From contig WSXY01000016.1 in the NCBI GenBank assembly GCA_009773565.1, positions 1 through 33,844 of the forward strand: 33,844 bases of DNA. Direction: 5' to 3'. Each line of letters opens with the position of its first letter. Position 1 is the first letter of the stretch. Shown here in pieces: positions 1,403 through 28,308 of the stretch. Made by a program: the position numbers and the translations under genes. A model generated the notes under the pieces. The model made no database searches. It was not told the DNA's origin and worked only from the letters and a program-made list of their open reading frames with translations. Source of the stretch: Actinomycetota bacterium (GTDB lineage: Bacteria; Actinomycetota; Coriobacteriia; Anaerosomatales; Anaerosomataceae).

Positions 1403-1771
1403 TCAGCCCCGATCCCTATCGCGCTCCGGGTCGACGACCCGGAAGCCGATCGAACAGACGATTGAGATGATGAGGCTCGCAACGACCGTCTGCCAGAAGC
1501 CTGTCGTGTGCACGCCGGGAACGATCCATTCGACGAGATAGAGCATGAACGCGCTGATCACGAGCGAGAAGAGCCCGAGCGTGATGACCGTGACCGGGAA
1601 TGCGAGCACCTGGATGATCGGCTTCACGATGGCATTCGCGACGGCGAGGACGACTGCAGCGAAGACGGCGGCGGGCCAAAACGAGTCCACCTGCAGCAGC
1701 GCACCGCCGGTGAGGTACGCGACGCCGAAGAGCGCGGCTGCAGACACGAGCATTCGAAGAACGAACTTCAT
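1403..1771 (-). CDS. Phage-holin-family (YvlD-like) small membrane protein
   Basis: 122-aa integral membrane protein. From ATG at 1771 (preceded by AGAGGGGAG) it reads MKFVLRMLVSAAALFGVAYL, with about four hydrophobic segments: roughly residues 5-25, 30-50, 57-80 and 88-110. The central NAIVKPIIQVLAFPVTVITLG is the hallmark of the phage holin family 4 / YvlD group (an N-x-IVKP-(I/L)-L-xxPxTxxTLG pattern). These are chromosomal genes, not phage remnants, and their function is poorly defined (envelope stress in some Firmicutes). It sits between uvrC and rapZ on the same strand, with one base between its stop and the rapZ start. The longer frame from 1843 adds a leader without a ribosome-binding site and is rejected. 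Confidence 0.85.
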   Translation of the reverse strand: MKFVLRMLVSAAALFGVAYLTGGALLQVDSFWPAAVFAAVVLAVANAIVKPIIQVLAFPVTVITLGLFSLVISAFMLYLVEWIVPGVHTTGFWQTVVASLIISIVCSIGFRVVDPERDRDRG

Positions 1772-1849
1772 CGCGAGACTCCCCTCTCTCGAACCCGGGA
1801 CACGTACGCCTGGTGGAAGCAGTATACCAGCCCCGACCAACACGATGGC

Positions 1850-3715
1850 CTAAGAACCGGCGCCTTCACCTGGCCTTTCGAGCGCGTGCACGATGTCAGC
1901 GGCAAGTTCGCCCGAAACGCCGGGAACAGCCCGGATCTCCTCGGCAGATGCGGCACGCAGACGCTTCACGGAGCCGAACGCCTTGAGGAGCTCCTTCTTG
2001 CGCTTCGGCCCGACGCCGGGGATGTCATCCAGCACGGAAGCGGTCATCGCCTTCGCGCGCAGCGTGCGGTGGTACTCGATCGCGAAACGGTGGGCCTCGT
2101 CCCGGACCCGCTTCACGAGATAGAGCGACGACGAGCCGGTCGGGAGCGTGACGGGATCCTCCCAGCCGGGCACGTACAGCTGCTCTTCGCGCTTGGCTAG
2201 CGAGACGATCCTGACGTCGACACCGAGCGCTTCCGCTGCGGCCAACGCCGCCGTCAGCTGTGGCTTTCCACCATCAACGACGATGAGGTCGGGATGGGCG
2301 CCAAATCGAGCATCGCCGGCCTTGTCGCGTGCGAATCGTCGGCCCAGAATCTCGCGCATCATCGCGAAGTCGTTCGCTTCCTCGGCGGGCATACGTATCC
2401 GGAACCGCCGATATGCGGCCCGGTCGGCGCGGCCTCCGCTGAAGACGACCATCGAGCCGACCGAGTACGTCCCCTGCAGCGTCGAGATGTCGAAGCACTC
2501 GATGCGCAGCGGTGGCGCCGGCAGTGCGAGCGCGCTCTCGAGTTCGAGCAGCGCACGGTTCAGGCGCTCCTCATCGTAGCGCGTGCGGTGCTTGTAGCGA
2601 GCGAGCGTGAATCGCGCGTTCGTGGCCGCGAGCTCCGCAAGCGCGCGCTTCTCGCCCCGCTGCGGGACGGACAGGCTCACCCGCGCTCCCCGGAGGCCGC
2701 TCAGCCACTCCTCGGTCACCACCGGATCCTCGGGCATCGCGGGCACGATGACCTCTCGCGGCATGTACGTCGCTTCGCCGTAGTAGCGCAGCAGGAAGCC
2801 CTCGATGAGCTCCGATTCCGGCACATCGAGACCCTTGTCGAGCACGAAATCGTTCCCGGCGAGTACGCGACCTTCGCGCACGAGAAAGACATGGACGCCC
2901 GCGATGGTCTCCTCGCGCTCGAAACCGATAACGTCCATATCGAGCGGTCGGTCCGAGACGACCTTCTGCTTCTCGAGAACGCTTCGGACGGCGTCCAGCG
3001 AGTTGCGGAAGCGGGCAGCGCGCTCGTAGTCCAGGTCGGCCGACGCCTCGCGCATGTGACGTTCGAGGTCGTCGGCGACGCCGCGGTGGCGGCCCTCAAG
3101 GAACGCGACGACATCGGCGACCCGCTCCGCGTACTCCTCGCGCGTGATCGCGCCCACGCACGCGCCCGGGCCCTTGCTCACGTGGTAGTCGAAACAGGGC
3201 TTCCCGGCCGGTTCGCCACCGTGTGCCGTCAGGCGCTTCCACTCGGCGCACGTCGAGCGGCAGATCGGATAGACGCGGCGCACGATCTCGACCGTCTCGC
3301 GCGCGCCACGGGCATCGGTGTACGGCCCGAAGTAGCGCGTGCCTGCGCGATGCTTCTCGCGGGTGAACTTGATTGCCGGGTACGGGTCGTCGAAGTTGAT
3401 CGCGATGAAAGGGAATGACTTGCCGTCGCGATAGTCGACGTTATACGGCGGGTCGAACTGCTTGATGAGGTTGGCCTCGAGAATGAGCGACTCGACCTCG
3501 GTGTCGGTGACCATGTAGTCGTAGCCGGCGGCCTGCTCCATCAAGAACGGGATCTTCTCGCGATCATCCTGGCCGAGGACGTACTGCTTCATACGCTTGC
3601 GGAGCGACTTCGCCTTGCCGACGTAGAGCACCTCGCCCTCGGCACCCTTCCACAGGTAGACTCCCGGCGTGTCGGGCACGTCGCCGAGGGTCATGCGGAT
3701 GTCGTCGAGCGGCAT
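1850..3715 (-). CDS. uvrC: UvrABC system protein C (excinuclease subunit)
   Basis: 621 aa, the normal UvrC length. The N-terminal GIY-YIG nuclease (3' incision) is seen as TPGVYLWK...VLYVGKAKSLRKRM at about residues 16-45, with E in VESLILEANLIKQ. A cysteine-containing linker (PICRSTC...GKPCFDYH...GPGACVG), a UVR-type helical pair near 210-245 and the RNase-H-like 5' nuclease (IECFDISTLQG, DLIVVDGGKPQL, YHRTLRAK) follow. Two helix-hairpin-helix motifs end the protein (IPGVGPKRKKELLKAFGS, VPGVSGELAADI). The usual DxSHxxG around the first catalytic Asp reads DISTLQG here. It follows uvrA by 8 bp on the same strand, so the two are probably co-transcribed. Role: dual incision of nucleotide-excision-repair substrates. 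Confidence 0.97.
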   Translation of the reverse strand: MPLDDIRMTLGDVPDTPGVYLWKGAEGEVLYVGKAKSLRKRMKQYVLGQDDREKIPFLMEQAAGYDYMVTDTEVESLILEANLIKQFDPPYNVDYRDGKSFPFIAINFDDPYPAIKFTREKHRAGTRYFGPYTDARGARETVEIVRRVYPICRSTCAEWKRLTAHGGEPAGKPCFDYHVSKGPGACVGAITREEYAERVADVVAFLEGRHRGVADDLERHMREASADLDYERAARFRNSLDAVRSVLEKQKVVSDRPLDMDVIGFEREETIAGVHVFLVREGRVLAGNDFVLDKGLDVPESELIEGFLLRYYGEATYMPREVIVPAMPEDPVVTEEWLSGLRGARVSLSVPQRGEKRALAELAATNARFTLARYKHRTRYDEERLNRALLELESALALPAPPLRIECFDISTLQGTYSVGSMVVFSGGRADRAAYRRFRIRMPAEEANDFAMMREILGRRFARDKAGDARFGAHPDLIVVDGGKPQLTAALAAAEALGVDVRIVSLAKREEQLYVPGWEDPVTLPTGSSSLYLVKRVRDEAHRFAIEYHRTLRAKAMTASVLDDIPGVGPKRKKELLKAFGSVKRLRAASAEEIRAVPGVSGELAADIVHALERPGEGAGS

Positions 3716-8383: not shown

Positions 8384-10633
8384 GTGCCAGGGCCCGTCGT
8401 CGAGTCCGACGAGCTCGGGGAGTTCCTTGTCGAGCGCCGGCGCATGCTCGCGTCATCGATACCGGGGACTGCCGCGACCAAGCTCCTGTCCGACATCACC
8501 GACCAGGCCGTCTCCGCTCTTGCGGAGGCGGCCTTCGCGTCACTCCCCGACCGGTGGGCAGTGCTCGCGCTTGGCGCGTATGGCTCGCAACGGCTGCTGC
8601 CGTTCTCGGATATCGACCTGCTTGTGATCACCGACGCACGCGCCTCGAAACTGCGTGAGCCGGTCGCAGCGCTACTCTATCCGCTCTGGGATGCGGGTTT
8701 CGACGTTGGCCACGCGGTTCGTTCGCGACGTGATCACGCCCGGGCGTGCGGACAGGAGCTGCACACGCTCACGGCCACCCTGACCGCGAGACATCTCGCG
8801 GGCGACGAAGCGCTCTCTGCGGCGATGACTGCCGGCGTCCTTCAAGCTGCGCGCAGAAGGCGTCCGGCCCTCACGCACCTGCTGGCCTCACGCGAAGGAA
8901 TCGGCTCGCCGTACGCGCTGGAGCCCGAGCTCAAAGACGGCGCCGGTGGTCAGCGAGATCTGGACGAACTCGTCTGGCGAGAACTGCTTGGCGATGATCC
9001 TCAGAACGCTGACACCGCGCGGGAGCTTGCCGCCGCACAGGACGTCATCTCCGCCGCACGGTGGGTGCTACACCTCGACGCGGGACGCAAGACAGCGCTC
9101 CTCGATGACGAGATCGCCGGGGAGAGCGGCCTCGATCGCGAAGCACTCGCAAACGCGCGAGCCACCGCACACGAGGTGCTGCTCGTCGCCCGGGGGAGCA
9201 TTCCCGGGCACGCGCTCTCCTCCGCCGCGTGGCGCCCGCCGGATCTCCTCGAGGCGCTCGCACGCGGTACTGCCGCATTGCCAACACTCGAGAGTGCGGC
9301 CCGCCGCGGCGCACTCGATGCGATCGTACCCGGACTGTCGGAACTCATGACGCTCGTCCGGCCTGCGCTCTCCCACCGGCTAACTGTCGGCGCACACTCA
9401 CTGTTGACTGCGGCGCTGCTCGCCGAGCTTGGAACACACGACAGGCTCACCTCGCGTGCACTAGCGGCCGTCACCGACCGTCGTCCCCTGCTGGCAGCGG
9501 CGCTCGCGCATGACGCAGGTAAGACCATCGCGGGACCCGGCCACGCGCTCAGGAGCGAGTCTACAGCGCGTGCGACCGCGCTCGCGCTCGGCAGTACGAG
9601 CATGGGAGCGGACAGTGCGGGCGCGCTCGCGCGCGAACACCTGCTTCTCGCAGAGACCGCGTCATCCGAGGACATCGACGATGAGGAGATCGTACTGCGG
9701 ACCGCCGCGCGTATCGGCAGTCGCGAGCTCGTCGGTCAACTCTATGTACTCACTGCCGCAGACAGCCTCGCTACGGGACCGGGAATGTGGGACGCGTGGC
9801 ATGCATCGCTGGTACGCACGCTTGTCTCGCGACTCGACGCCGCATTCGCCGACGAGATCGACGGCGCCGGAATGCTCAGCTCCGCCGGGGATGTACGTCG
9901 CGACGCGATCGCTCTCGTCGACGACGACCCGACAACGACGCAGGTCCTCACCGCCGCGCCCGTGCGGTATCTCGCGTCCCGCTCGCCATCTGAGGCTGCA
10001 TCAGATGCGCGGTTACTGGCGGCCCTCGGTGCGCCGGGCTCCCGCGGACAGTTCGCGCTGCGGGTCTCGCCGGGGAGCGTGCCGGGAACGCATCGGCTCG
10101 CCATCGCAACGATCGACAGTCCGGGGGTGTTCGCACTCATCGCAGGTGTCGTCGCGCTCTCGGGACTTGACGCGCTCGGTGCCTCGGCCGACGCGGGTCC
10201 GTCGGGGACGGCGCTCGACACGTTCACGGTTCGTCCCGCGACGCTCGCGACGCCGGACGACAACACCTGGGCGACCCTTGAGCGATATCTCGCAGCCGCG
10301 CTCGAGGGTCGCCTTGACCTGCGTACCCGCCTCATGGAGCGGCAGCGCCAGTACGGAATCCGCAGTGCGGGACGCCCCCGGGTGACGATCGCAGCTCCCA
10401 GAGCGTTTGCGACCGCCGTTCGCGTCAGCGCCGGCGACCGGCCCGGCCTGCTCTTCGATATAGCCGACGAGATCGCCGCAGCCGGCTATATCGTCACGCG
10501 CGCGAACGCGCTCACCCGCGGCGCACGCGCGCACGACACGTTTCACCTGGTAGACACCGACGGCTCGGCTCCACGCGACCCCGGCGCGCTCGGGCACCTC
10601 GCGATGCGACTCCGAACGCGACTGAGCAGCTAA
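8384..10633 (+). CDS. glnD: GlnD-like PII nucleotidyltransferase/deadenylylase
   Basis: 749 aa. The N-terminal nucleotidyltransferase domain has LALGAYGSQRLLPFSDIDLLVI at about 64-85 (G-S-x9-D-x-D type), followed by a GlnD-like block with LEPELKDGAGGQRDLDEL near 180. A central HD phosphohydrolase motif reads LAHDAGKTIAGPGH, and two ACT domains close the protein (about 560-630 and 675-745, the latter with DRPGLLFDIADEIAAAGY). It is shorter and more divergent than enterobacterial GlnD (about 890 aa) but matches the actinobacterial form encoded after glnK. Its job is probably addition and removal of a nucleotide at Tyr51 of GlnK in response to glutamine bound by ACT domains. The start is GTG with no clear ribosome-binding site, consistent with coupling to glnK; whether AMP or UMP is transferred cannot be told. 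Confidence 0.9.
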   Translation: MPGPVVESDELGEFLVERRRMLASSIPGTAATKLLSDITDQAVSALAEAAFASLPDRWAVLALGAYGSQRLLPFSDIDLLVITDARASKLREPVAALLYPLWDAGFDVGHAVRSRRDHARACGQELHTLTATLTARHLAGDEALSAAMTAGVLQAARRRRPALTHLLASREGIGSPYALEPELKDGAGGQRDLDELVWRELLGDDPQNADTARELAAAQDVISAARWVLHLDAGRKTALLDDEIAGESGLDREALANARATAHEVLLVARGSIPGHALSSAAWRPPDLLEALARGTAALPTLESAARRGALDAIVPGLSELMTLVRPALSHRLTVGAHSLLTAALLAELGTHDRLTSRALAAVTDRRPLLAAALAHDAGKTIAGPGHALRSESTARATALALGSTSMGADSAGALAREHLLLAETASSEDIDDEEIVLRTAARIGSRELVGQLYVLTAADSLATGPGMWDAWHASLVRTLVSRLDAAFADEIDGAGMLSSAGDVRRDAIALVDDDPTTTQVLTAAPVRYLASRSPSEAASDARLLAALGAPGSRGQFALRVSPGSVPGTHRLAIATIDSPGVFALIAGVVALSGLDALGASADAGPSGTALDTFTVRPATLATPDDNTWATLERYLAAALEGRLDLRTRLMERQRQYGIRSAGRPRVTIAAPRAFATAVRVSAGDRPGLLFDIADEIAAAGYIVTRANALTRGARAHDTFHLVDTDGSAPRDPGALGHLAMRLRTRLSS

Positions 10634-19930: not shown

Positions 19931-20344
19931 TTATAGACGCATCTCGCCGAGCAGCTCTGCTACGCGCGCAACGCGCACGCTCTCGTACGCACCGAGGTCG
20001 AGCAGGTGCTTATCGCCTGACACGATCAAATCCGCTTCGCCCGCGACCGCACACTCAAGCACGCGGTTGTCGGCATCGTCGGCAAGGATATGAACTCTAT
20101 CCGTAGGCCGCACCACCTCTGCGACGCGGGCGATCTGTCGAATGACGTCGCGGACGTGCTCATCGTCGAAACCGAGCACCTCGTACAGCTTGTCGGCCAC
20201 TTCGGTCAGGATTGCGGGTGAGGTGATAAGCGTGTACTCACTGAGGATCGCCGCCCGCATCAACGCGGCCGGCTTTCCACCAAGACCGTACGCCGAGATG
20301 TACACGTTTGTATCGAGAACGACCCTACGCCTCGCGGGCTTCAT
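19931..20344 (-). CDS. PIN-domain ribonuclease toxin
   Basis: 137 aa. VVLDTNVYISAYG supplies the first PIN acidic residue; EVADKLYEVLG, then DDADNRVLECAVAGEADLIVSGDKHLLDLG supply the others (D.x(n)DN.VLE...ADLIVSGD), as in COG1569 PIN toxins of VapC-like systems. Such proteins cleave RNA with Mg2+. The ATG at 20344 lies within the last 20 nt of the upstream antitoxin gene (GAGAGG before it), the overlap typical of a coupled toxin-antitoxin pair. Confidence 0.87.
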   Translation of the reverse strand: MKPARRRVVLDTNVYISAYGLGGKPAALMRAAILSEYTLITSPAILTEVADKLYEVLGFDDEHVRDVIRQIARVAEVVRPTDRVHILADDADNRVLECAVAGEADLIVSGDKHLLDLGAYESVRVARVAELLGEMRL

Positions 20345-20576
20345 GGATCAGCCTCTCGACGTCCGACTCCGTACGCACTCCCCGCTCCTGAGCGCGCGAA
20401 CGTCCGTACGCCGAGAGATCCTCGAAGACCATGAGCTCGCGATTCCGCTTGTAGACGCGAAGCATCTCGCGAAAGAGTTCGCTCTTCGAACATCCCTGCG
20501 CAACCGCGATGCGCTCCACATCAGCAGCGATCTCTGGCGGTACCGAGAAGCCAATCGTTGTGGCTGTGCGGACCAT
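20325..20576 (-). CDS. Ribbon-helix-helix (CopG-like) antitoxin
   Basis: 83 aa. The N-terminal half MVRTATTIGFSVPPEIAADV and RIAVAQGCSKSELFREMLR is a ribbon-helix-helix DNA-binding fold; the C-terminal half (LSAYGRSRAQERGVRTESDVERLIHEAREA) would cover the toxin. A good AGGTGAG site lies 6 nt before ATG. It overlaps the PIN toxin gene by 20 nt. Likely an autorepressor together with the toxin. Confidence 0.87.
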   Translation of the reverse strand: MVRTATTIGFSVPPEIAADVERIAVAQGCSKSELFREMLRVYKRNRELMVFEDLSAYGRSRAQERGVRTESDVERLIHEAREA

Positions 20577-20759: not shown

Positions 20760-20945
20760 TCATGAGATATCCGTGACCGGTGGTTGATGTCCACGGTGAT
20801 GGGCCTTTGACTGCAGGATGAGGACCGCCCCAACGTACATCGCAGATAGCCACACGGCGTTCATGGCGGCTGACTCAAGTGCGCTCAGTACAAGCAGAAC
20901 CACACCGCCAGCCCTTGCGAACATGCCTACCAAAGTGAGAACCAT
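20760..20945 (-). CDS. Possible small membrane protein downstream of Rhs cassette 1
   Basis: 61 aa with two hydrophobic stretches (LTLVGMFARAGGVVLLVLSAL and AMNAVWLSAMYVGAVLIL) and a His/Pro-rich tail. It begins 24 bp after the stop of the preceding membrane protein on the same strand. No good ribosome-binding site is seen, and an overlapping 77-codon frame at 20620-20853 cannot be excluded. It might be a second accessory or immunity gene of the cassette. The stretch 20603-20759 holds nothing else I recognise. Confidence 0.4.
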   Translation of the reverse strand: MVLTLVGMFARAGGVVLLVLSALESAAMNAVWLSAMYVGAVLILQSKAHHRGHQPPVTDIS

Positions 20946-20969
20946 AGGTGTAGCTTGCGGAGACGCGTG

Positions 20970-21377
20970 TCAGAACACCCATGTCGTGAAAGTGATCGCC
21001 AAGCACACGAGCCCGGCGATCGTCCAGCCACGTTCGCTCTTGGCGAAGGCAACCGAATCATGGTAGAGCACGGACGCTTGAATCGCACGCCTCCTTGCCG
21101 AGCGGGCAAGCCATGCCGAAACGCCGTAGAAGCCAGCGAAGCGCACCGTGTCGAGCAGAGGCTGGGCGGGGCTGTCGCCCCAGGCGAAGAATGCGTAGAA
21201 GCCCCCCACCACAACGCTGAAGCCAAAGAAGTACGCGGCTCGCCACCAGTCCCGGTGAACGAGATACCACAGCATCGGGAGAAGAAACGCTCCAACGCTG
21301 AATCGCGTATCGAAGTCTGAACTGACGGCGGAGGGACCACTCTGCCGCGAAGTATCTTGACTGGGAGTATCATTCAT
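20970..21377 (-). CDS. Multi-pass membrane protein, candidate immunity protein for Rhs tip 1
   Basis: 135 aa from ATG at 21377, with GGAGGA 6 nt upstream. After a polar N-terminus (MNDTPSQDTSRQSGPSA) come FSVGAFLLPMLWYLVHRDWW, AAYFFGFSVVVGGFYAFFAWG, a stretch with FAGFYGVSAWLARSARRRAIQ, and a last helix IAGLVCLAITFTTWVF, giving three to four membrane segments. The plan resembles DUF2628-type small membrane proteins. It lies 74 bp downstream of the Rhs tip on the same strand, the standard place for an immunity gene; that role is inference from position only. Base composition is visibly less GC-rich than the flanking core genes. Confidence 0.7.
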   Translation of the reverse strand: MNDTPSQDTSRQSGPSAVSSDFDTRFSVGAFLLPMLWYLVHRDWWRAAYFFGFSVVVGGFYAFFAWGDSPAQPLLDTVRFAGFYGVSAWLARSARRRAIQASVLYHDSVAFAKSERGWTIAGLVCLAITFTTWVF

Positions 21378-21451
21378 CGTGAGTCCTCCAACTAGAAATC
21401 GTTGTCCCGAAAGGAAGTGCCGAGAACGCGACGCGCGTGGACTTCGCGCCC

Positions 21452-22534
21452 TCATGGACGACTTAGTCCACGGGAATTCTGAACCACGACGATTGCCGGC
21501 TTGTTCCTATCCGCCCATTTCTGCCATACGTTGAACCGCAACTTTGACACCCATAAAGCCGTGTAGGGTCCAATCTTCCCTGTGATGCTCCCGGCCTTGC
21601 GATTCGTGGCCCCCCGCTTCGCGGTCTTCACTCGGTAGTTGTGCCAGCCCTGCATGCCGGGGAACCGCTGCGCACACCCTACGCCTATGTCAAAGACCGT
21701 GCCCATGTCCAGGAGCCTATGGATCTTGTGAGCGTTTCCCTTACGCCACCATGATAGTTGCCAGTCCACAGCGAGGCGACCGCTCCCTGAAGAGTAGAAC
21801 CAGTCCACGGTCAGTCTGCACTTGAGCGTCTCGCCCGCTGCGTAAAACAAAGATGCCGCCATTTCACGCCAGTTCGCAGACGGGCTAACAAACCGGTCGT
21901 ATGCCCATATCGTGAACCACTTGACTGACCTCAGCCCACTCGGATCGACACTCCCCACCGGATCCCCGCCGCAGTACTGGTACGCGCTCTCCTCGCCGTC
22001 GGCCTTTGCAGGGTCTTTGGTGATGAACTGAGCGGTCGCGGAGTCGTAGTAACGCTGGGAACAGTAGTAGAGGCCCGAGAAGCCATCGTAGCAGTATCCG
22101 GCATAGCGGAGCGGGTTGGCGTTCGCGATCGCCGCCGCCACGGCTGCGGGAATCGTTGCAGTCCCCGTAGTCGCCACACTACCGGGATTGCCGTACACGT
22201 CGTAGGTCATGTATGCGAATACCACCACGTTCGCGTCGATGAGTTCAGTGACGTCGCCGCGCTGAGTGGTCAGGATGCCGAACGAGACGGGCACAGTCGT
22301 CTCCGTTCCAGCGTACACACCGAGCCAAGGACGCCCCGCTCCGTCTGGCACGTATGTGACACCCCAAGTCGTGCCGTTGCTGCGCTCCGCAGACAGGGCG
22401 AGCATGGTGAGACCGTCATACGTGTATGTCGTCGTTGTGGTGATGCTCCCGCTCGTGACGGTTGACCGCGTGCGCTGTCCACGTGAATCGTACGCGAAGG
22501 TCGCTCCGATCCCCCTGGCCTGCGTCGACTTTTG
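21452..22534 (-). pseudogene. Rhs/YD-repeat C-terminal fragment with variable toxin tip 1
   Basis: The open frame enters from the insertion sequence and covers 361 codons of Rhs sequence; the N-terminal body is absent. The YD-repeat part includes FAYDSRGQRTRS, YTYDGLTMLALS, GDVTELIDANVVV and YMTYDVYGNP. It is followed by the Rhs core end: PLRYAGYCYDGFSGLYYCSQRYYD, then FITKDPAKADGEESAYQYCGGDP and VGSVDPSG. After this DPxG-like junction comes an unrelated tip of about 160 aa (SVKWFTIWAYDRFVSPSANW to NSRGLSRP) with a Trp-rich middle and basic C-terminus. I do not recognise the toxin fold. In polymorphic toxin systems such a tip is the effector domain and the next gene encodes immunity. Without start or secretion region it is an orphan tip. 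Confidence 0.82.
21940..22120 (-). repeat. Rhs core repeat copy 1 (181 bp)
   Basis: This stretch matches 24576-24756 without gaps at roughly 90% identity by eye. It encodes the conserved end of the Rhs core from ANPLRYAGYCYDG to VGSVDP. The sequences on both sides differ, so the repeat marks the segment shared between two toxin cassettes. Confidence 0.85.
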
Positions 22535-22568
22535 TGAGTGACTTCTGTCCTGTATCACTGCTCGGTTT

Positions 22569-23450
22569 TCAAGTTGCCAGGCGCTCGAGGTAGGACAGCC
22601 GGTACTCCACCGGAGTCCGATATCCAAGCGTCGAGTGCATACGCTGTCGATTGTAGAACAGCTCGATGTAGGAGAAGACGTCTTGCTTCACCTCCTCGAG
22701 ATCCTTGTAGTCCTTGTGGTGGATGCACTCGCGCTTAGCCGAGGAGAAGAAGCTCTCCGCCACCGCGTTGTCGAAGGGGCATCCGCTCTTCGACATCGAG
22801 CCCACGATCCCGTTGTCGGCCAGCATGCGCATGAAGCTCTTCGACGCGTACTGGATGCCGCGGTCGGAGTGGAAGACCGTCGGCGTATCGGTGACGCCGC
22901 GCCTGGCTATCGCCGAGGACAAGGCGCGCTTGACCAACTCGACATCGATCGACTTAGAGAGCGCGTGTCCGATCACTTCCCGGTTGAACAGGTCGATCAC
23001 GACCGCCAAATACGTCCACCCGAGCCTGGTCTTGATGTAGGTGATGTCACCAGCCCACACCTCGTTGGGACGAGGTGCGAAGAAATGCTGGTCCAAGGCG
23101 TTGTCGAAGAACCTGCCGTCGGCCTTGCCGGAGCGACCAGGGCGGAAACGTCTTGTCGTGATGGGGTAGAGGCCGGCTTCGCGCATGATTCTTCTCACCT
23201 TGTACTCGGACACGGCAAGACCGCTCTCGTTGAGCGCCCGCGACATCTTGCGGTAGCCGTAGACACGTCGGTTGTCCTCGAAGACCTTGCGCACGTGGCG
23301 CGTGAGGTCGCGGTACGCCTCGGCGCGCTCGGCACGCTGCTGCCGTCTCCTCTTCCACTGCCAGTAGGCAGAAGGCTTCAGCCCGAGCGCTTTGCACATC
23401 TTCTCCACGGTAAAGACGGGGCTGTGACGAAGGATCGCTTCGTACTTCAT
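22569..23450 (-). CDS. IS3-family transposase OrfB (DDE integrase core)
   Basis: 293 aa. An N-terminal HTH_21-like region (VRKVFEDNRRVYGYRKMSRALNE, KVRRIMREAGL) precedes the rve catalytic core: first Asp in WAGDITYIKTRLGW, second in VFHSDRGIQYAS, Glu in FDNAVAESFFSSAK, then YNRQRMHSTLGYRTPVEY. ATG overlaps the orfA stop (ATGA), and an A6 run about 40 nt upstream lets a -1 shift join OrfA and OrfB. All catalytic residues are intact, so it could be active. Confidence 0.92.
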   Translation of the reverse strand: MKYEAILRHSPVFTVEKMCKALGLKPSAYWQWKRRRQQRAERAEAYRDLTRHVRKVFEDNRRVYGYRKMSRALNESGLAVSEYKVRRIMREAGLYPITTRRFRPGRSGKADGRFFDNALDQHFFAPRPNEVWAGDITYIKTRLGWTYLAVVIDLFNREVIGHALSKSIDVELVKRALSSAIARRGVTDTPTVFHSDRGIQYASKSFMRMLADNGIVGSMSKSGCPFDNAVAESFFSSAKRECIHHKDYKDLEEVKQDVFSYIELFYNRQRMHSTLGYRTPVEYRLSYLERLAT

Positions 23451-23791
23451 CCTTGTGGTTGCATGAAGATGCGCAGGGATTTTTTCAGGATCTCGACTTT
23501 CTCGCGCTCCTCTTTGAGCAGCTTCTCGGTACGCTTGAGCTCATGCTCGAGATCCTTGGCCTTCTGTCTGAACTCGGCCGAGGAGACCGGGGTCGGCGTC
23601 TTGATCCCCTTCTCTTCCGCGTAGGTGGGCATGTCGTGGGTCCTTCGGTACTCGCGCACCCACTTGCACACGGTATTGGTGTCGATGCCCATCTCCTCGG
23701 CCACACCCGTGGCGGACTTGCCTGAGGAGAGGATGAACTCGGCGGTCTGTCTTCTGACTTCGGGGGAGTACCTGGTGTTGGGGCTCGGCAT
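23447..23791 (-). CDS. IS3-family transposase OrfA (HTH, leucine-zipper)
   Basis: 114 aa from ATG at 23791 with AAGGAGG upstream. Starts with a helix-turn-helix (RYSPEVRRQTAEFILSSG, VAEEMGIDTNTVCKWVREY) and ends with a Leu-zipper-like coil (AKDLEHELKRTEKLLKEERE). It binds the element ends. Near its 3' end lies AAAAAAT, a likely -1 frameshift site into orfB. Confidence 0.9.
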   Translation of the reverse strand: MPSPNTRYSPEVRRQTAEFILSSGKSATGVAEEMGIDTNTVCKWVREYRRTHDMPTYAEEKGIKTPTPVSSAEFRQKAKDLEHELKRTEKLLKEEREKVEILKKSLRIFMQPQG

Positions 23792-23857
23792 GTCGGGGTT
23801 TCGCCTCCTTGTGTTTGGCGTCACTGCATCTTGTATGCAGACGGCGACAAAACCCAC

Positions 23858-24211
23858 TCACGCTTTTTCAGCGCAGACCAAGACCACTTCTCGAATTGTC
23901 GGAATCGATGCTCCCAGAGCCAGACCTAACGCAAGCGCGGATTGAGTGTCCGCAAGGTAGGACATAGCGACCCACGCAAGAACGGCAACCGTGACTGACA
24001 GCCCCATCCAGCACATTCGCGAATCCAGCGAGTGCGAGAACCATCGCAGGTATCCAGAATCCAGCCTGATTGCCGATGTGTGGAAAACACACACTGTGAC
24101 GAGAACAGCGGACACCACCGCACCTTCGCCTCCGGTCCAAGTGGCCCACTGCGCCAAACCGAAGAGGAGGCCAACTACCACGGCCGTAGCTACGCCCTTA
24201 CCAGTTCTCAC
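23858..24211 (-). CDS. Multi-pass membrane protein, candidate immunity protein for Rhs tip 2
   Basis: 117 aa from GTG at 24211, which shares its first base with the last base of the Rhs tip stop codon (TAGTG), so translation is probably coupled. Four hydrophobic segments: GVATAVVVGLLFGLAQWATW, GAVVSAVLVTVCVF, MGLSVTVAVLAWVAMSYL and ALALGLALGASIPTI, with a short basic N-terminus. No family is recognised. Position directly after the toxin tip is the usual place of an immunity gene. Lower GC than the flanking housekeeping genes. The longer frame from 24268 lies inside the Rhs tip and is not preferred. Confidence 0.7.
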   Translation of the reverse strand: MRTGKGVATAVVVGLLFGLAQWATWTGGEGAVVSAVLVTVCVFHTSAIRLDSGYLRWFSHSLDSRMCWMGLSVTVAVLAWVAMSYLADTQSALALGLALGASIPTIREVVLVCAEKA

Positions 24212-24858
24212 TAGTATCCGGCCCTCCACTTCTTGATGTAGCCCGTCATGTAGAACTGCACGTACCAATAGTCACCCTTACTACCTACGTATCCTGTGGC
24301 GGTTAGGGACTTCTTTGTGTAATGCGCACCCGCGCTACTCGCAATTGCTCTTCCCATCTTCCTCACGCCTTGGCTTGAGCCCGACTTGCCGCCGTAATAG
24401 AGAGCAGCCGCATCGACCACTACTTCGTGGATGTACACGGTGTGGAGTGTGACTAAGACTCTGCAGTACCACTTCCCCGAGTAGCCATGACAGCTGTTCG
24501 CATTCAGCTTGTAGTTGCCGTACCACGACTTCACAACCGTCTCGGTGCGGTATATTAAGGATTTGCGCTCCCCCGTCGGATCGACCTTCCCCACCGGATC
24601 CCCGCCGCAGTACTGATACGCGCTCTCTTCCCCGTCGGCCTTGGCGGGGTCCTTCGTGATGAACTGCGCGGTGGCCGGGTCGTAGTAACGCTGGGAGAGG
24701 TAGTAGAGTCCCGAGAAGCCATCGTAGCAGTATCCGGCATAGCGGAGCGGGTTGGCCGCTGCGACCTCGGCGGCAGTGGTCGCGTCGAGGCTCGCGGTCG
24801 GGGTGGTCGTGGTCTCGGTCGGGCGTCCGAAGGCGTCGTAGCCGTAGAAGGCGTGTTG
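24211..24858 (-). pseudogene. Rhs/YD-repeat C-terminal fragment with variable toxin tip 2
   Basis: About 216 codons, truncated upstream by an insertion sequence. The core part starts HAFYGYDAFGRPTETTTTPT and continues ANPLRYAGYCYDG, FSGLYYLSQRYYDPATAQ, FITKDPAKADGEESAYQYCG and GDPVGKVDPTG, nearly the same as cassette 1. The tip after VDPTGER is about 120 aa, Tyr-, Lys- and Ser-rich, with NANSCHGYSGKWYCRVLVTL, HEVVVDAAALYYGGKSG and SKGDYWYVQFYMTGYIKKW. It is unrelated to tip 1, and I recognise no catalytic motif. The tip and the next gene have visibly lower GC than the surroundings. No start, signal or delivery region is present, so it is an orphan effector tip unless recombination joins it to a full Rhs gene elsewhere. 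Confidence 0.82.
24576..24756 (-). repeat. Rhs core repeat copy 2 (181 bp)
   Basis: Direct repeat of 21940-22120, same length and orientation, encoding the end of the Rhs core just before the variable tip. Differences are scattered single bases, four of which change residues (C/L, S/P, S/K, S/T). Confidence 0.85.
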
Positions 24859-24922
24859 CGTGTCAGAATCTATTGGACACATGCACGTCATACCCATGTC
24901 CCCGATTCTGGCAGGTGTTTCC

Positions 24923-25243
24923 ATGGGACGCAAACCGTATCACACGCCCGACGACAAGATGAACATCGTGCTCTCGGTCTTGCGGGGTGAGACCTCCCAG
25001 ACCGACATCGCTCGGCGTCTCGAGCTGAGCCAGACCACGATCGCCAAGTGGCAGAAGCAGTTCCTCGAGTCCGGACGGGAGGGTCTCGCCCGGGGCGAGA
25101 ACGCCAAGAGCGAGGCGACCAAGCGCGAGGAGGAGCTCACCGACAAAGTCGACGAACTCACGACCGCACTCGGGGAAGCCTACGCCGAACTCAGGGTCTG
25201 GCGGAAAAAAGGGGGTCTTTACTCCCCCCGTACGCGAAGCTAG
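24923..25243 (+). CDS. IS3-like transposase OrfA (HTH)
   Basis: 106 aa from ATG at 24923. Helix-turn-helix region YHTPDDKMNIVLSVLRGE and TDIARRLELSQTTIAKWQKQ, then a Glu/Lys-rich coil (KREEELTDKVDELTTALGEAYAELRVW). The frame contains CGG AAA AAA GGG; slipping by -1 on the A6G run joins it to the integrase frame. An upstream in-frame ATG at 24860 falls on the element tip and is not used. Confidence 0.87.
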   Translation: MGRKPYHTPDDKMNIVLSVLRGETSQTDIARRLELSQTTIAKWQKQFLESGREGLARGENAKSEATKREEELTDKVDELTTALGEAYAELRVWRKKGGLYSPRTRS

Positions 25244-26142
25244 AGGAGATCCGGACAAGGCACTCTGTCCCTGTCTCACGCTTCTGCGCCATCTGCTCGA
25301 TACCCCGCTCGACATGGTACGCGTGGCGTCACGCCCACCTGAACGGACGGACGCCCGTCCGTCGTCTTGCGCCGGTCGTCGACGAGATCGAGCCCCTCGC
25401 CGCGGCCCACGCCTACACGTACTCTGCCTGGGGTCACCGCAAGATATGGGCGATGATGCGTGCCGAGGGGGCGCGGGCGTCTGCGAGCAGCGTGGCACGC
25501 GCCCTCAAGCGAAGGGGCCTGTTGCAAGCGCCGAACTTCCGGCACGAACGCAAGATGTACGCCCAGGTCCGCAAGGAGACGTTCTTGAACCCTCCGAAGA
25601 CCCGCAACCGGGTGTGGCAAGCCGACTTCACGGAGTACGAGACCGACGCTGGCGGCACCTGGAGGATATGCATCGTGATCGACTATGCGACCAAGGTGGT
25701 GCTCGCTGCTCGCATCGCCGGGACCTCGACGGCGCTCGACGCCATCCAGACCGTGATGGATGCGATCTCGGAGGCCGAGCGTCTCTCGGATCATGAGCTC
25801 GCGCACGACTGCGTGGACGTCGAGACCGGAGAGATCGTGCCGCTTTCCCTCGTCACGGACAACGGGGCCGCGTTCAAGGCGACGCGCTTCAAGACGTTCA
25901 TCGACTCGCTTGCCGAGCTCCGCCACGTGCGCACGAGACATCATGCTCCGGAGACGAACGGGGTGGTGGAGCGGTTCAACTCAACGCTCAAGTACGAACA
26001 CCTCTACCGGCTCCCGATCCCGGATGCCGCCACGCTGATGGACGAGGTCGCCTGGTTCATCGAGTTCTACAACACGAAGCGGCCCCACCAGACGCTCGGT
26101 CAGCGACCGCCGATCGAGGCCTACCGCGAGACAGGGTTATGA
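25204..26142 (+). CDS. IS3-like transposase OrfB (rve integrase core, -1 frame)
   Basis: About 312 residues in the -1 frame from the slippery site at 25205-25211; probably made as an OrfAB fusion. HTH-type segment YSAWGHRKIWAMMRAEG, ASSVARALKRRGLL, then DDE core: Asp in VWQADFTEYETDAGG, Asp in LVTDNGAAFKATRF, Glu in ETNGVVERFNSTLKYEHL, and FYNTKRPHQTLGQRPPIEAY. Catalytic residues are intact. No separate strong start is seen. Confidence 0.88.
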   Translation, partial: EKRGSLLPPYAKLEEIRTRHSVPVSRFCAICSIPRSTWYAWRHAHLNGRTPVRRLAPVVDEIEPLAAAHAYTYSAWGHRKIWAMMRAEGARASASSVARALKRRGLLQAPNFRHERKMYAQVRKETFLNPPKTRNRVWQADFTEYETDAGGTWRICIVIDYATKVVLAARIAGTSTALDAIQTVMDAISEAERLSDHELAHDCVDVETGEIVPLSLVTDNGAAFKATRFKTFIDSLAELRHVRTRHHAPETNGVVERFNSTLKYEHLYRLPIPDAATLMDEVAWFIEFYNTKRPHQTLGQRPPIEAYRETGL

Positions 26143-26203
26143 CGTATTCCGGGACAAAAGTGTCCAATCGGGTTGACACAACACAGAGACTGGCAAGGCT
26201 TTC

Positions 26204-26218
26204 CTGACGAACGGTCAG
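26204..26218. repeat. Weak stem-loop after uvrB
   Basis: CTGAC-GAACG-GTCAG, a 5-bp stem between the insertion sequence end and the uvrB stop. No T-run follows. The 63-bp gap 26179-26241 holds nothing else, and no Rhs sequence remains there. Confidence 0.25.
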
Positions 26219-26241
26219 CCCCGCCCTCTGTCCTTGTTGAA

Positions 26242-28308
26242 CTACCGCTTGCGCTTCCTGACCCCGTGGGCTGATCCTTTGCGGGCGCCTTGCTTGAGGC
26301 GCGCGAGCACCTCGTCGGCGGTCGATGACTCCACTTCGGCCTTGATCTTGACGACCTGGTCGCGCAGTCGCGCCGCCGTCTCGAAGTCGAGCGCCTCGGC
26401 GGCGCCATGCATGTCCTCTTCCATCGTTGCGATGATGCGGGCAAGCTCCGCGCGCGGAAGCTTGCCAAGTTCCTCGGCAACCACAACGCTCGATTCGAGA
26501 CCCGCTTCCGTCTCGCGCACGTATTGTGCGATGTCGTGGATCAGCTTGCGGATGGTCTTGGGCTCAATGCCATGCTCGAGGTTATACGCGGTCTGGATCG
26601 CGCGGCGGCGGTCGGTCTCCTCGATGGCGGTACGCATGGCATCACTTACCTTGTCGGCGTAGAGAATGACCTCGCCAGAGACGTTTCGCGCGGCGCGGCC
26701 GATGGTCTGGATGAGGCTGCGGTGATTGCGGAGGAAGCCCGCCTTATCCGCATCGAGAATCGCCACCAGTGAGACTTCGGGCAGGTCCAGTCCCTCACGC
26801 AGCAAGTTGATGCCGACCACCGCGTCGACGACCCCGGCTCGCAAGTCACGCAGGATCTCGATGCGCTCAAGGGTGCCGATGTCGCTGTGGATGTAGCGGA
26901 CCTTGATGCCGTGCTCGAAGAGGTACTCCGTGAGGTCCTCGGCCATCTTCTTGGTGAGGGTCGTGATGAGCGTGCGCTCGTCGCGCTCCGCACGCTCGCG
27001 AATCTCGGCGATGATGTCATCGATTTGGCCGCGCGTCTCGCGAACCTCGATCTTTGGGTCCACGAGGCCTGTCGGACGGATGATCTGCTCCACGACCTGA
27101 TCGGCGGTCCGCATCTCGAAGTCACCAGGCGTGGCCGAGACGAACACCGTCTGCGGGATGCGCGCGCGGAACTCCTCGAAGCGCAATGGACGGTTGTCGA
27201 GCGCGCTCGGCAGCCGGAAGCCGTGCTCCACGAGCGTGAGCTTGCGGGAGCGGTCGCCCTCGTACATGCCGTGCAACTGCGGTATGGTCACGTGGGACTC
27301 ATCGATGATGCACAGGAAGTCCTTGCCGAAGTAGTCGATGAGCGTGTGTGGCGGCTCGCCGGGATTTCGACCGTCAAGGTGGCGCGAGTAGTTCTCGACG
27401 CCGTTGCAGTAGCCCATCGTCTCGAGCATCTCGAGGTCGTAGCTGGTGCGCATCTCGAGGCGCTGCGCTTCAAGCACCTTGCCGGCGGCTTTAAGCTCGC
27501 CGAGTCGTATGCGCAACTCCTCGCGGATTGTGTCGAGCGCCTCGGCGACCTTGTCGGGACGCGTCACATAGTGCGTTGCCGGCCACACCGGAAGCGAGTC
27601 GAACGGTGCGATGGCCTCGCCCGTGACCATGTCGACTTCGGTGACCGCCTCGACGGTATCGCCGAAAAGCTCCACGCGCACCGGGTTGTCGTTGTAGGGC
27701 GGGAAGATGTCGACGACATCGCCGCGGACCCGGAAGGTGCCGCGCGAAAGATCGTAGTCGTTGCGGTCGTAGTTGATCTCGATGAGATCGCGGATGAGCG
27801 CGTCGCGGTCGTACTCGTCGCCCACCTTGAGGAACACGGCCATGCCGGCATAATCCTCGGGCGAACCGATGCCGTAGATGCAGCTCACGCTTGCCACCAC
27901 AACGACGTCCTTGCGCGAGAGCAGCGCTGCCGTGGCGGCGTGCCGGAGCTTCTCGACCTCCTCGTTGATCGACGCGTCCTTCTCGATGAACGTGTCAGAG
28001 GACGGCACGTAGGCTTCCGGCTGGTAGTAGTCGTAGTACGACACGAAGTAGACGACGGCGTTGTCCGGCATGATGTCGCGCAGCTCCGAGGCGAGCTGAG
28101 CCGCAAGCGTCTTGTTGGGAGCGAGGATGAGCGTCGGCTTCTGGACGGCCTCCGCGAGCTTGGCGACGGTGAACGTCTTGCCGGAGCCGGTCACGCCGAG
28201 AAGCGTCTGGTCGCGCATGCCTGCGCGGATACCCGCGGTCAGCTCGGCGATCGCCTTCGGCTGGTCGCCCGCCGGTTCGTACTCCGCAACGACCTTGAGT
28301 GCGCCCAC
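26242..28308 (-). CDS. uvrB: UvrABC system protein B (damage verification helicase)
   Basis: 688 aa from GTG at 28308, which has GAAGGAGG just upstream; the frame extends to 28389, but those residues overlap the next gene and are not UvrB-like. Begins [19 protein letters not shown]; Walker [11 protein letters not shown] (38-47); the damage-probing beta-hairpin region [25 protein letters not shown]-type [11 protein letters not shown]; helicase motifs [14 protein letters not shown] and [10 protein letters not shown]-terminal UVR motif [28 protein letters not shown], split here only for description. It hands damage from UvrA to UvrC. In this window it lies about 20 kb from uvrA-uvrC, just upstream of the Rhs island. 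Confidence 0.97.

Follow-up and report, generated by a model that had tools for sequence, protein, structure and literature searches.

Two orphan Rhs tip cassettes with putative membrane immunity proteins in an Anaerosomatales contig, probably the 3′ remnant of a WapA-like toxin locus

Introduction

Orphan Rhs cassettes and their swapping into the main gene are already on record for Enterobacteriaceae (rhs-CT/rhsI; Koskiniemi 2014, PMC3967940), and orphan pairs have likewise been published behind the Gram-positive WapA (PMC12704120). Since orphan Rhs cassettes are known, the locus described here is ordinary in itself: it lies in a 33,844-nt stretch of DNA, hereafter the window, that makes up a whole contig (WSXY01000016.1, contig C22 in our numbering) of an Actinomycetota bacterium of the class Coriobacteriia and the order Anaerosomatales (assembly GCA_009773565.1), and it comprises two Rhs core ends, A and B, each continued by its own tip and followed by a small membrane protein (TM-A, TM-B). 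We read it, with a probability of about 0.72, as what is left, at the 3′ end, of a WapA-like Rhs polymorphic-toxin locus whose product was exported by Sec: two predicted tip/immunity cassettes remain, and their tips most likely act on the cell envelope.

The Enterobacteriaceae orphans share with the present locus a displaced 3′ core piece joined to a tip and followed by a partner, with no start or export signal, as well as a DPxG boundary and a near-identical core for recombination with the main gene; our locus differs in that it has lost the main gene and has membrane proteins as partners, and Sec-like signals are found on the related full-length genes. WapA and the 'truncated duplications' of Streptococcus suis WapA (PMC12704120) resemble our locus in the N-terminal signal, Sec-like as judged by eye on the full-length genes of relatives here, in the Rhs repeats and polymorphic tips, and in the orphan C-terminal (CT)/immunity pairs downstream. 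The tips and the bacterial class are different, however, and the S. suis CTs were assayed in the cytoplasm of Escherichia coli, whereas the pairs here suggest envelope targets. The envelope action proposed below has a likeness in Pseudomonas aeruginosa Tse5, a membrane-acting Rhs tip that forms pores and is delivered from a diderm by type VI secretion (PMC10684867). Toxin and immunity cassettes also make up the polymorphic toxin catalogue (Zhang 2012, PMC3482391), whose spare cassettes outnumber active toxins (median 1:3); there 'all but few' immunity proteins are described as cytoplasmic and one lipoprotein as exceptional, whereas most partners here are membrane or lipoprotein-like proteins.

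A search of open-licence PubMed Central for Rhs together with Anaerosomatales returned no paper, and for DUF2628 (the family that TM-B resembles) together with toxin its sole match was a paper on the regulon of a plant pathogen. By term search, the words Rhs and toxin are absent from the main text of the paper on EMTCatB1, a thermophilic-biocathode actinobacterium of this order (PMC7943316).

Results

Anatomy of the cassettes

The two Rhs core ends lie on the minus strand in the same orientation, carry unlike tips and each have a small multi-pass membrane protein behind them, as established by TIGR03696 matches, tip comparison and hydropathy. A first-pass annotation of this DNA had described the same arrangement and had noted that the window holds no Rhs N-terminal body; both statements stand. 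It had overlooked two insertion sequence (IS) elements, one between the cassettes and one abutting cassette A, and the right edge of the interval that it delimited (20760-24858) is the end of the latter (about 24861-26178, plus strand). Read on the minus strand from uvrB, the order is IS, core end A with tip A, TM-A, IS3-family element, core end B with tip B, TM-B and a mini open reading frame (ORF). The main features are as follows.

24571..24858, minus strand: Rhs core end A, 5′-truncated, ending in DPTG (TIGR03696, Rhs_assc_core, E 1e-20)
24211..24570, minus strand: tip A, predicted toxin tip of 119 aa (homologue behind a Rhs core in relative G037)
23858..24211, minus strand: TM-A, putative membrane immunity protein of 117 aa with four hydrophobic segments (hydropathy)
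21935..22534, minus strand: Rhs core end B, 5′-truncated by an IS, ending in DPSG (TIGR03696, E 2.5e-19)
21452..21934, minus strand: tip B, predicted all-beta toxin tip of 160 aa (homologue behind a Rhs core in relative G001)
20970..21377, minus strand: TM-B, DUF2628-like protein of 135 aa, putative immunity protein for tip B (PF10947, borderline)
24861..26178, plus strand: IS element with an IS3/IS481-type transposase (frames 24860-25243 and 25048-26142; NCBIfam transpos_IS3, E 5.4e-47)
22535..23860, minus strand: IS3-family element between the cassettes (orfA 23447-23857, orfB 22569-23450; NCBIfam transpos_IS3, E 3.2e-97 and 1.5e-8)

Against a TIGR03696 cut-off of 32.5 bits, core ends A and B scored 74.0 and 69.5 bits. 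Their DNA forms a direct repeat, 82% identical over 239 nt (21935-22173 versus 24571-24809), that stops at the DPTG/DPSG codons, and the identity between A and B falls from 0.90 in the final 60 nt of the core to 0.22 in the initial 60 nt of the tip, a drop that marks the classic Rhs tip boundary. Both cassettes consist of a 3′ piece of conserved core fused to a variable tip, the arrangement that defines an orphan Rhs-CT cassette. Core end B is 45% identical to the end of a full-length Rhs body of the K type, so named after its TKDPAKADGEES motif; the other core type is called S. We rejected the possibility that the tips are mere extra Rhs core, because they lack core similarity past DPTG/DPSG and are unlike each other.

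Recurrence of tips and partners in other genera

Among the 69 genomes of the order Anaerosomatales in our collection, tip A has a homologue in G037 (C6:63140-63490; 36%, E 9.9e-7) and tip B in G001 (C15:890-1255; 38%, E 1.5e-19), both in other genera, and each lies directly behind a Rhs core with a small membrane protein next. Because both tips recur in this setting, we regard the two units as genuine tip-partner cassettes, and the earlier description of them as displaced from a Rhs gene is upheld. Tip A also has a match in G057 and another in G028, at E of about 0.001 to 0.002; no Rhs core showed in the translations read, and both were taken as chance. In a class-wide search of 396 genomes, convincing matches to tip B were confined to its own genome and G001. 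Neither tip gave a Pfam or NCBIfam match worth naming, and PDB sequence searches reached a best E of 0.32. The AlphaFold2 (AF2) model of tip B is all-beta, at moderate confidence (predicted local distance difference test score (pLDDT) 65.5, predicted template modelling score (pTM) 0.66).

TM-A starts with a GTG at 24211 that overlaps the TAG stop of tip A (24211-24213) by 1 nt, and its TGA stop is supplied by the end of the adjoining IS3-family element; TM-B starts with an ATG at 21377, preceded by GGAGG, and the stop of tip B lies at 21452-21454. Taking as a hydrophobic segment any 19-residue Kyte-Doolittle mean above 1.6, TM-A has four and TM-B two, with a third in TM-B only at a lower cut of 1.0. 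Of the window's stop-to-stop frames with a length of 90-180 aa, 125 in all, only 3 contain at least two such segments, on which ground we dismissed the membrane proteins being chance or spurious ORFs.

The match of TM-B to DUF2628 (PF10947) hovers around the gathering score of 23, at 23.4 bits for a 161-aa ORF and 21.7 bits for the 135-aa ORF. A homologue of TM-B follows the tip B homologue in G001 (48%, E 9.9e-24; 46%, E 1.75e-29 in a pairwise comparison), and in G028 the end of a contig carries a third, decayed pair of this kind (tip E 0.008, partner E 8.1e-10). TM-A has no significant sequence homologue at the level of the order; the partners of tip A and of its homologue are unrelated in sequence, so that only position and topology are conserved. 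A small gene travels with each tip, as a homologous partner for tip B and by position and type for tip A. The first-pass annotation had named conservation of the downstream proteins without tips as evidence that would count against cassettes: the closest relatives of TM-B all sit behind tips, which speaks for the cassettes, and weak DUF2628-like matches without visible Rhs do exist, which speaks the other way. One locus (L110, G026:C188:1-4000) holds a DUF2628-like ORF with a second copy of its N-terminal motif downstream and no visible Rhs core, and possibly represents a standalone or repeated family outside Rhs cassettes.

Rhs arrays across the order

TIGR03696 was searched in 41 genomes of the order (our own and 40 relatives) and matched in 28, and a profile built from our own core recovered 90 core ends from the fetched stretches, in the same 28 genomes. 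Such core ends are common in Anaerosomatales, and the earlier view that the find is notable for its lineage gains no support. Full-length Rhs frames of about 2200 to 2640 aa head several arrays. In EMTCatB1 (G002, BDLO01000001.1), a 2342-aa Rhs frame is followed within 16 kb by ten orphan core ends of the same type; the array (L046, 766000-785900), with eleven K-type core ends in a single-contig genome and CHAP-like, hydrophobic and unknown tips, is a convenient model. All 11 long Rhs frames of relatives that were read have a signal-like hydrophobic stretch near the N-terminus (judged by eye; one frame is cut by a contig end), and the one full-length frame scanned matches RHS_repeat at E 7.7e-41.

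Within these loci, the last 60 nt of the core are 0.90 to 0.99 identical in seven of nine loci tested (0.64 and 0.72 in the remaining two, both S type), and the first 60 nt of the tip are 0.22 to 0.56 identical, below 0.40 in seven of the nine. Orphan tips of G002 and G017 match a main tip of G030 (54 and 53%), an orphan tip of G017 matches the main tip of G003 (52%) and one of G029 matches another main tip of G030 (45%). Orphan tips in one genome are thus main tips in another, as exchange between main and orphan positions would predict.

Membrane bias of the cassette partners

Of the 90 core ends, 71 entered the main count, each with a downstream ORF and a full tip no shorter than 90 aa; the other 19 were left out because the tip was short or incomplete, the core matched only in part or no ORF lay within range downstream. 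Membrane, lipoprotein-like and signal calls combine hydropathy with reading by eye. At least one hydrophobic segment was found in the downstream ORF of 65 of these 71 cassettes (K type, 32/37; S type, 22/22; other, 11/12). As a control, ORFs were picked in like manner downstream of other genes in these loci: 29 of 102 had such a segment when ORFs were limited to 300 aa, and 46 of 137 without a length limit (Fisher p ~1e-17 for partners versus control, relatedness uncorrected). A simpler rule that takes the longest ORF gave 60/72 for partners and 34/178 for the control.

The tendency extends beyond the order. When this procedure was applied to 35 clostridial loci, picked by record title from 78 returned out of the best 80 of 239 matches, the partner was hydrophobic in 45 of 60 cassettes versus 8 of 29 controls, and in eight termite-gut Coriobacteriia loci it was hydrophobic in 7 of 7, counts that rule out a pattern peculiar to Anaerosomatales.

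Some tips themselves point to the envelope: those of CHAP type are, by their domain, peptidoglycan hydrolases that act on the wall. An orphan tip of G017 contains a CHAP domain (E 1.1e-11) and the main tip of G002 has a weaker CHAP match, below the cut-off (E 1.9e-4), each followed by a lipoprotein-like ORF; moreover, 17 of the 22 S-type tips are hydrophobic. Tips A and B have no hydrophobic segment above 1.6, unlike those S-type tips, which is a further difference from Tse5. Membrane or lipoprotein partners combined with CHAP-bearing or hydrophobic tips make action on the envelope most likely, and we infer that the Rhs tips of these proteins with Sec-like signals strike there; a Sec-exported Rhs protein attacking membrane or wall from outside would call for an antidote in or on the membrane.

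Insertion elements and the absent Rhs body

The element at 24861..26178, which has an imperfect terminal inverted repeat (TGTCA...TTGGACAC, found by eye, the ends being uncertain by ~8 nt), lies 5′ of cassette A, a few bases from the core fragment, in the place where the Rhs body would be expected. The ends of the IS3-family element at 22535..23860 were set from the short inverted repeat TGAGTGnnTTnTGTC. No target-site duplication is visible for either IS, which fits a deletion beside an IS without proving one. On the far side, uvrB ends at 26242, its stop codon 64 bp past the far end of the IS that adjoins cassette A; its adjacency, singled out earlier as notable, reduces to uvrB being the neighbour that remains beyond the IS.

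The genome is 2.27 Mb in 25 contigs and 98.5% complete. When its assembly was searched with a 2050-aa K-type Rhs body (from G014), the only match was at this locus (query positions 1939-2049); a full-length main rhs gene with the same core nearby is lacking in this genome and present in relatives G002, G007 and G037. With the body lost, the window has neither a Sec signal nor Rhs repeats. With no K-type body elsewhere in the assembly and an IS replacing the body here, both cassettes look stranded, and the suggestion that they are kept as a usable reservoir for recombination is not borne out.

The same genome has two S-type Rhs core ends, one at the extremity of contig C17 and one at that of C9, which indicates that Rhs repeats break this assembly. 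Each has its own tip with a small membrane protein behind it, giving a membrane partner for all four Rhs cassettes seen in the genome. After DPSG, the two S-type tips (L003/L014, C17:275-734; L013, C9:168-720) have a common linker, ADLDGDGKVS.EEHKILNLRDK, with an EF-hand-like motif (EF-hand_5, E 0.0028, below the cut-off), and then diverge; judged by sequence, the linker is a shared pre-tip module before the variable part.

Discussion

The reading that we favour can be laid out as a course of events. While intact, the locus would have made a Rhs protein that left the cell by the Sec route and displayed a single tip at a time, and recombination in the near-identical core end would have brought a cassette from downstream into play along with the immunity gene that belongs to it. 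For the tips, the most likely site of action would be the envelope of competing monoderms, at the membrane or the wall, and not the cytoplasm. The Rhs body would later have been lost beside one IS, and the other IS would have landed between the cassettes.

Several points weigh against this reading. The assembly is fragmented, and the body could lie in unassembled sequence. Structure prediction offers little help, as the AF2 model of tip A is unusable (pLDDT 34), the model of tip B has no Foldseek match at E 0.001 or better, and its best VIA-align hit, a spliceosomal Brr2 chain (Z 8.6, root-mean-square deviation 3.3 over 105 residues), falls in the range of common arrangements. On the side of the partners, TM-A shows no recognisable relation to its counterpart behind the tip A homologue of G037 (E 0.41), DUF2628-like proteins also occur where no Rhs is visible, and 6 of the 71 partners have no hydrophobic segment (one is the TM-B homologue of G001, a threshold miss, another probably reflects the choice of a wrong ORF, and the remaining four resemble soluble proteins).

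The fragmentation of the assembly is also what lends substance to the idea of a live reservoir, in which the cell has a full-length K-type rhs gene that the assembly lacks and into which the orphans can still recombine, as was demonstrated for a Salmonella orphan. The first bases of contigs C9 and C17 fall within S-type Rhs cores, where Rhs repeats break the assembly, and relatives retain a main gene together with orphans. Yet the K-type body has no match outside this locus, uvrB directly past the IS argues that the body is gone from here, and the K and S cores share only ~70% DNA identity over ~100 bp; we consider a live reservoir unlikely. Loss may instead have gone further than we propose, leaving decaying debris whose tips and partners have ceased to be expressed or to work and which owes its cassette look to hydrophobic and core sequence only. 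The cassettes have no start codon or signal of their own, the orphan frames begin inside IS DNA, which also provides the stop of TM-A, and GC content is ~0.58 to 0.60 in the cassette region versus ~0.65 in the flanks. Against this, the reading frames of the two tips and the two partners are open and intact throughout, and their starts are either coupled or well spaced, so that decay has not gone far; we hold the debris explanation to be doubtful.

The membrane proteins could also serve the tips in delivery, anchoring or as chaperones and not be immunity proteins at all, given that one kind of protein stands behind almost every tip, whatever the tip sequence. Partner sequence nevertheless varies by tip, and relatedness of partners tracks that of tips (the tip B pair above; partner E 2e-17 for a pair in G017 and G023), as cognate immunity proteins should do and a general helper should not; a helper role is, in our judgement, decidedly improbable.

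If the favoured reading, a remnant of an envelope-directed system, is extended beyond the locus, Sec-exported Rhs proteins of Anaerosomatales, and apparently of clostridial relatives with similar cores, would form an envelope-directed toxin system whose tips act outside the membrane and whose immunity proteins are nearly all membrane proteins or lipoproteins, with tips A and B as two new envelope-active families and the DUF2628-like proteins as a membrane immunity family; we put the chances of this wider proposal at even. Were it true, the cytoplasmic immunity rule of the 2012 catalogue would be reversed here. A little-studied actinobacterial order holds large Rhs cassette arrays in which almost all partners are membrane-bound, and if the location of immunity reports the toxin's site of action, monoderm Rhs toxins that leave by Sec would not have to be taken up at all, a prediction that bears on the killing mode of very large Rhs proteins. 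The tip/partner pairs described here are offered for testing, including the possible immunity role of DUF2628-like proteins.

Minor features of the region

The mini-ORF at the 3′ end of the array, described from translation and hydropathy, is as follows.

20760..20945, minus strand: ORF of 61 aa with two hydrophobic segments, 3′ of TM-B

It is a possible remnant of another immunity gene. Just downstream of the cassettes lies a ribbon-helix-helix and PIN pair resembling VapBC toxin-antitoxin modules (19931-20576, minus strand). Contig C9, which has Rhs pieces at both ends, carries beside them a further ribbon-helix-helix and PIN pair (1541-2271, plus strand) and a PIN gene (8944-9330, plus strand); PIN modules adjoining three Rhs pieces in one genome may be more than chance. 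Finally, a 39-bp stretch around the uvrB stop codon (26215-26255), single-copy in the window, has 90% identity to a site on contig C1 (G000:C1:151931-151969).

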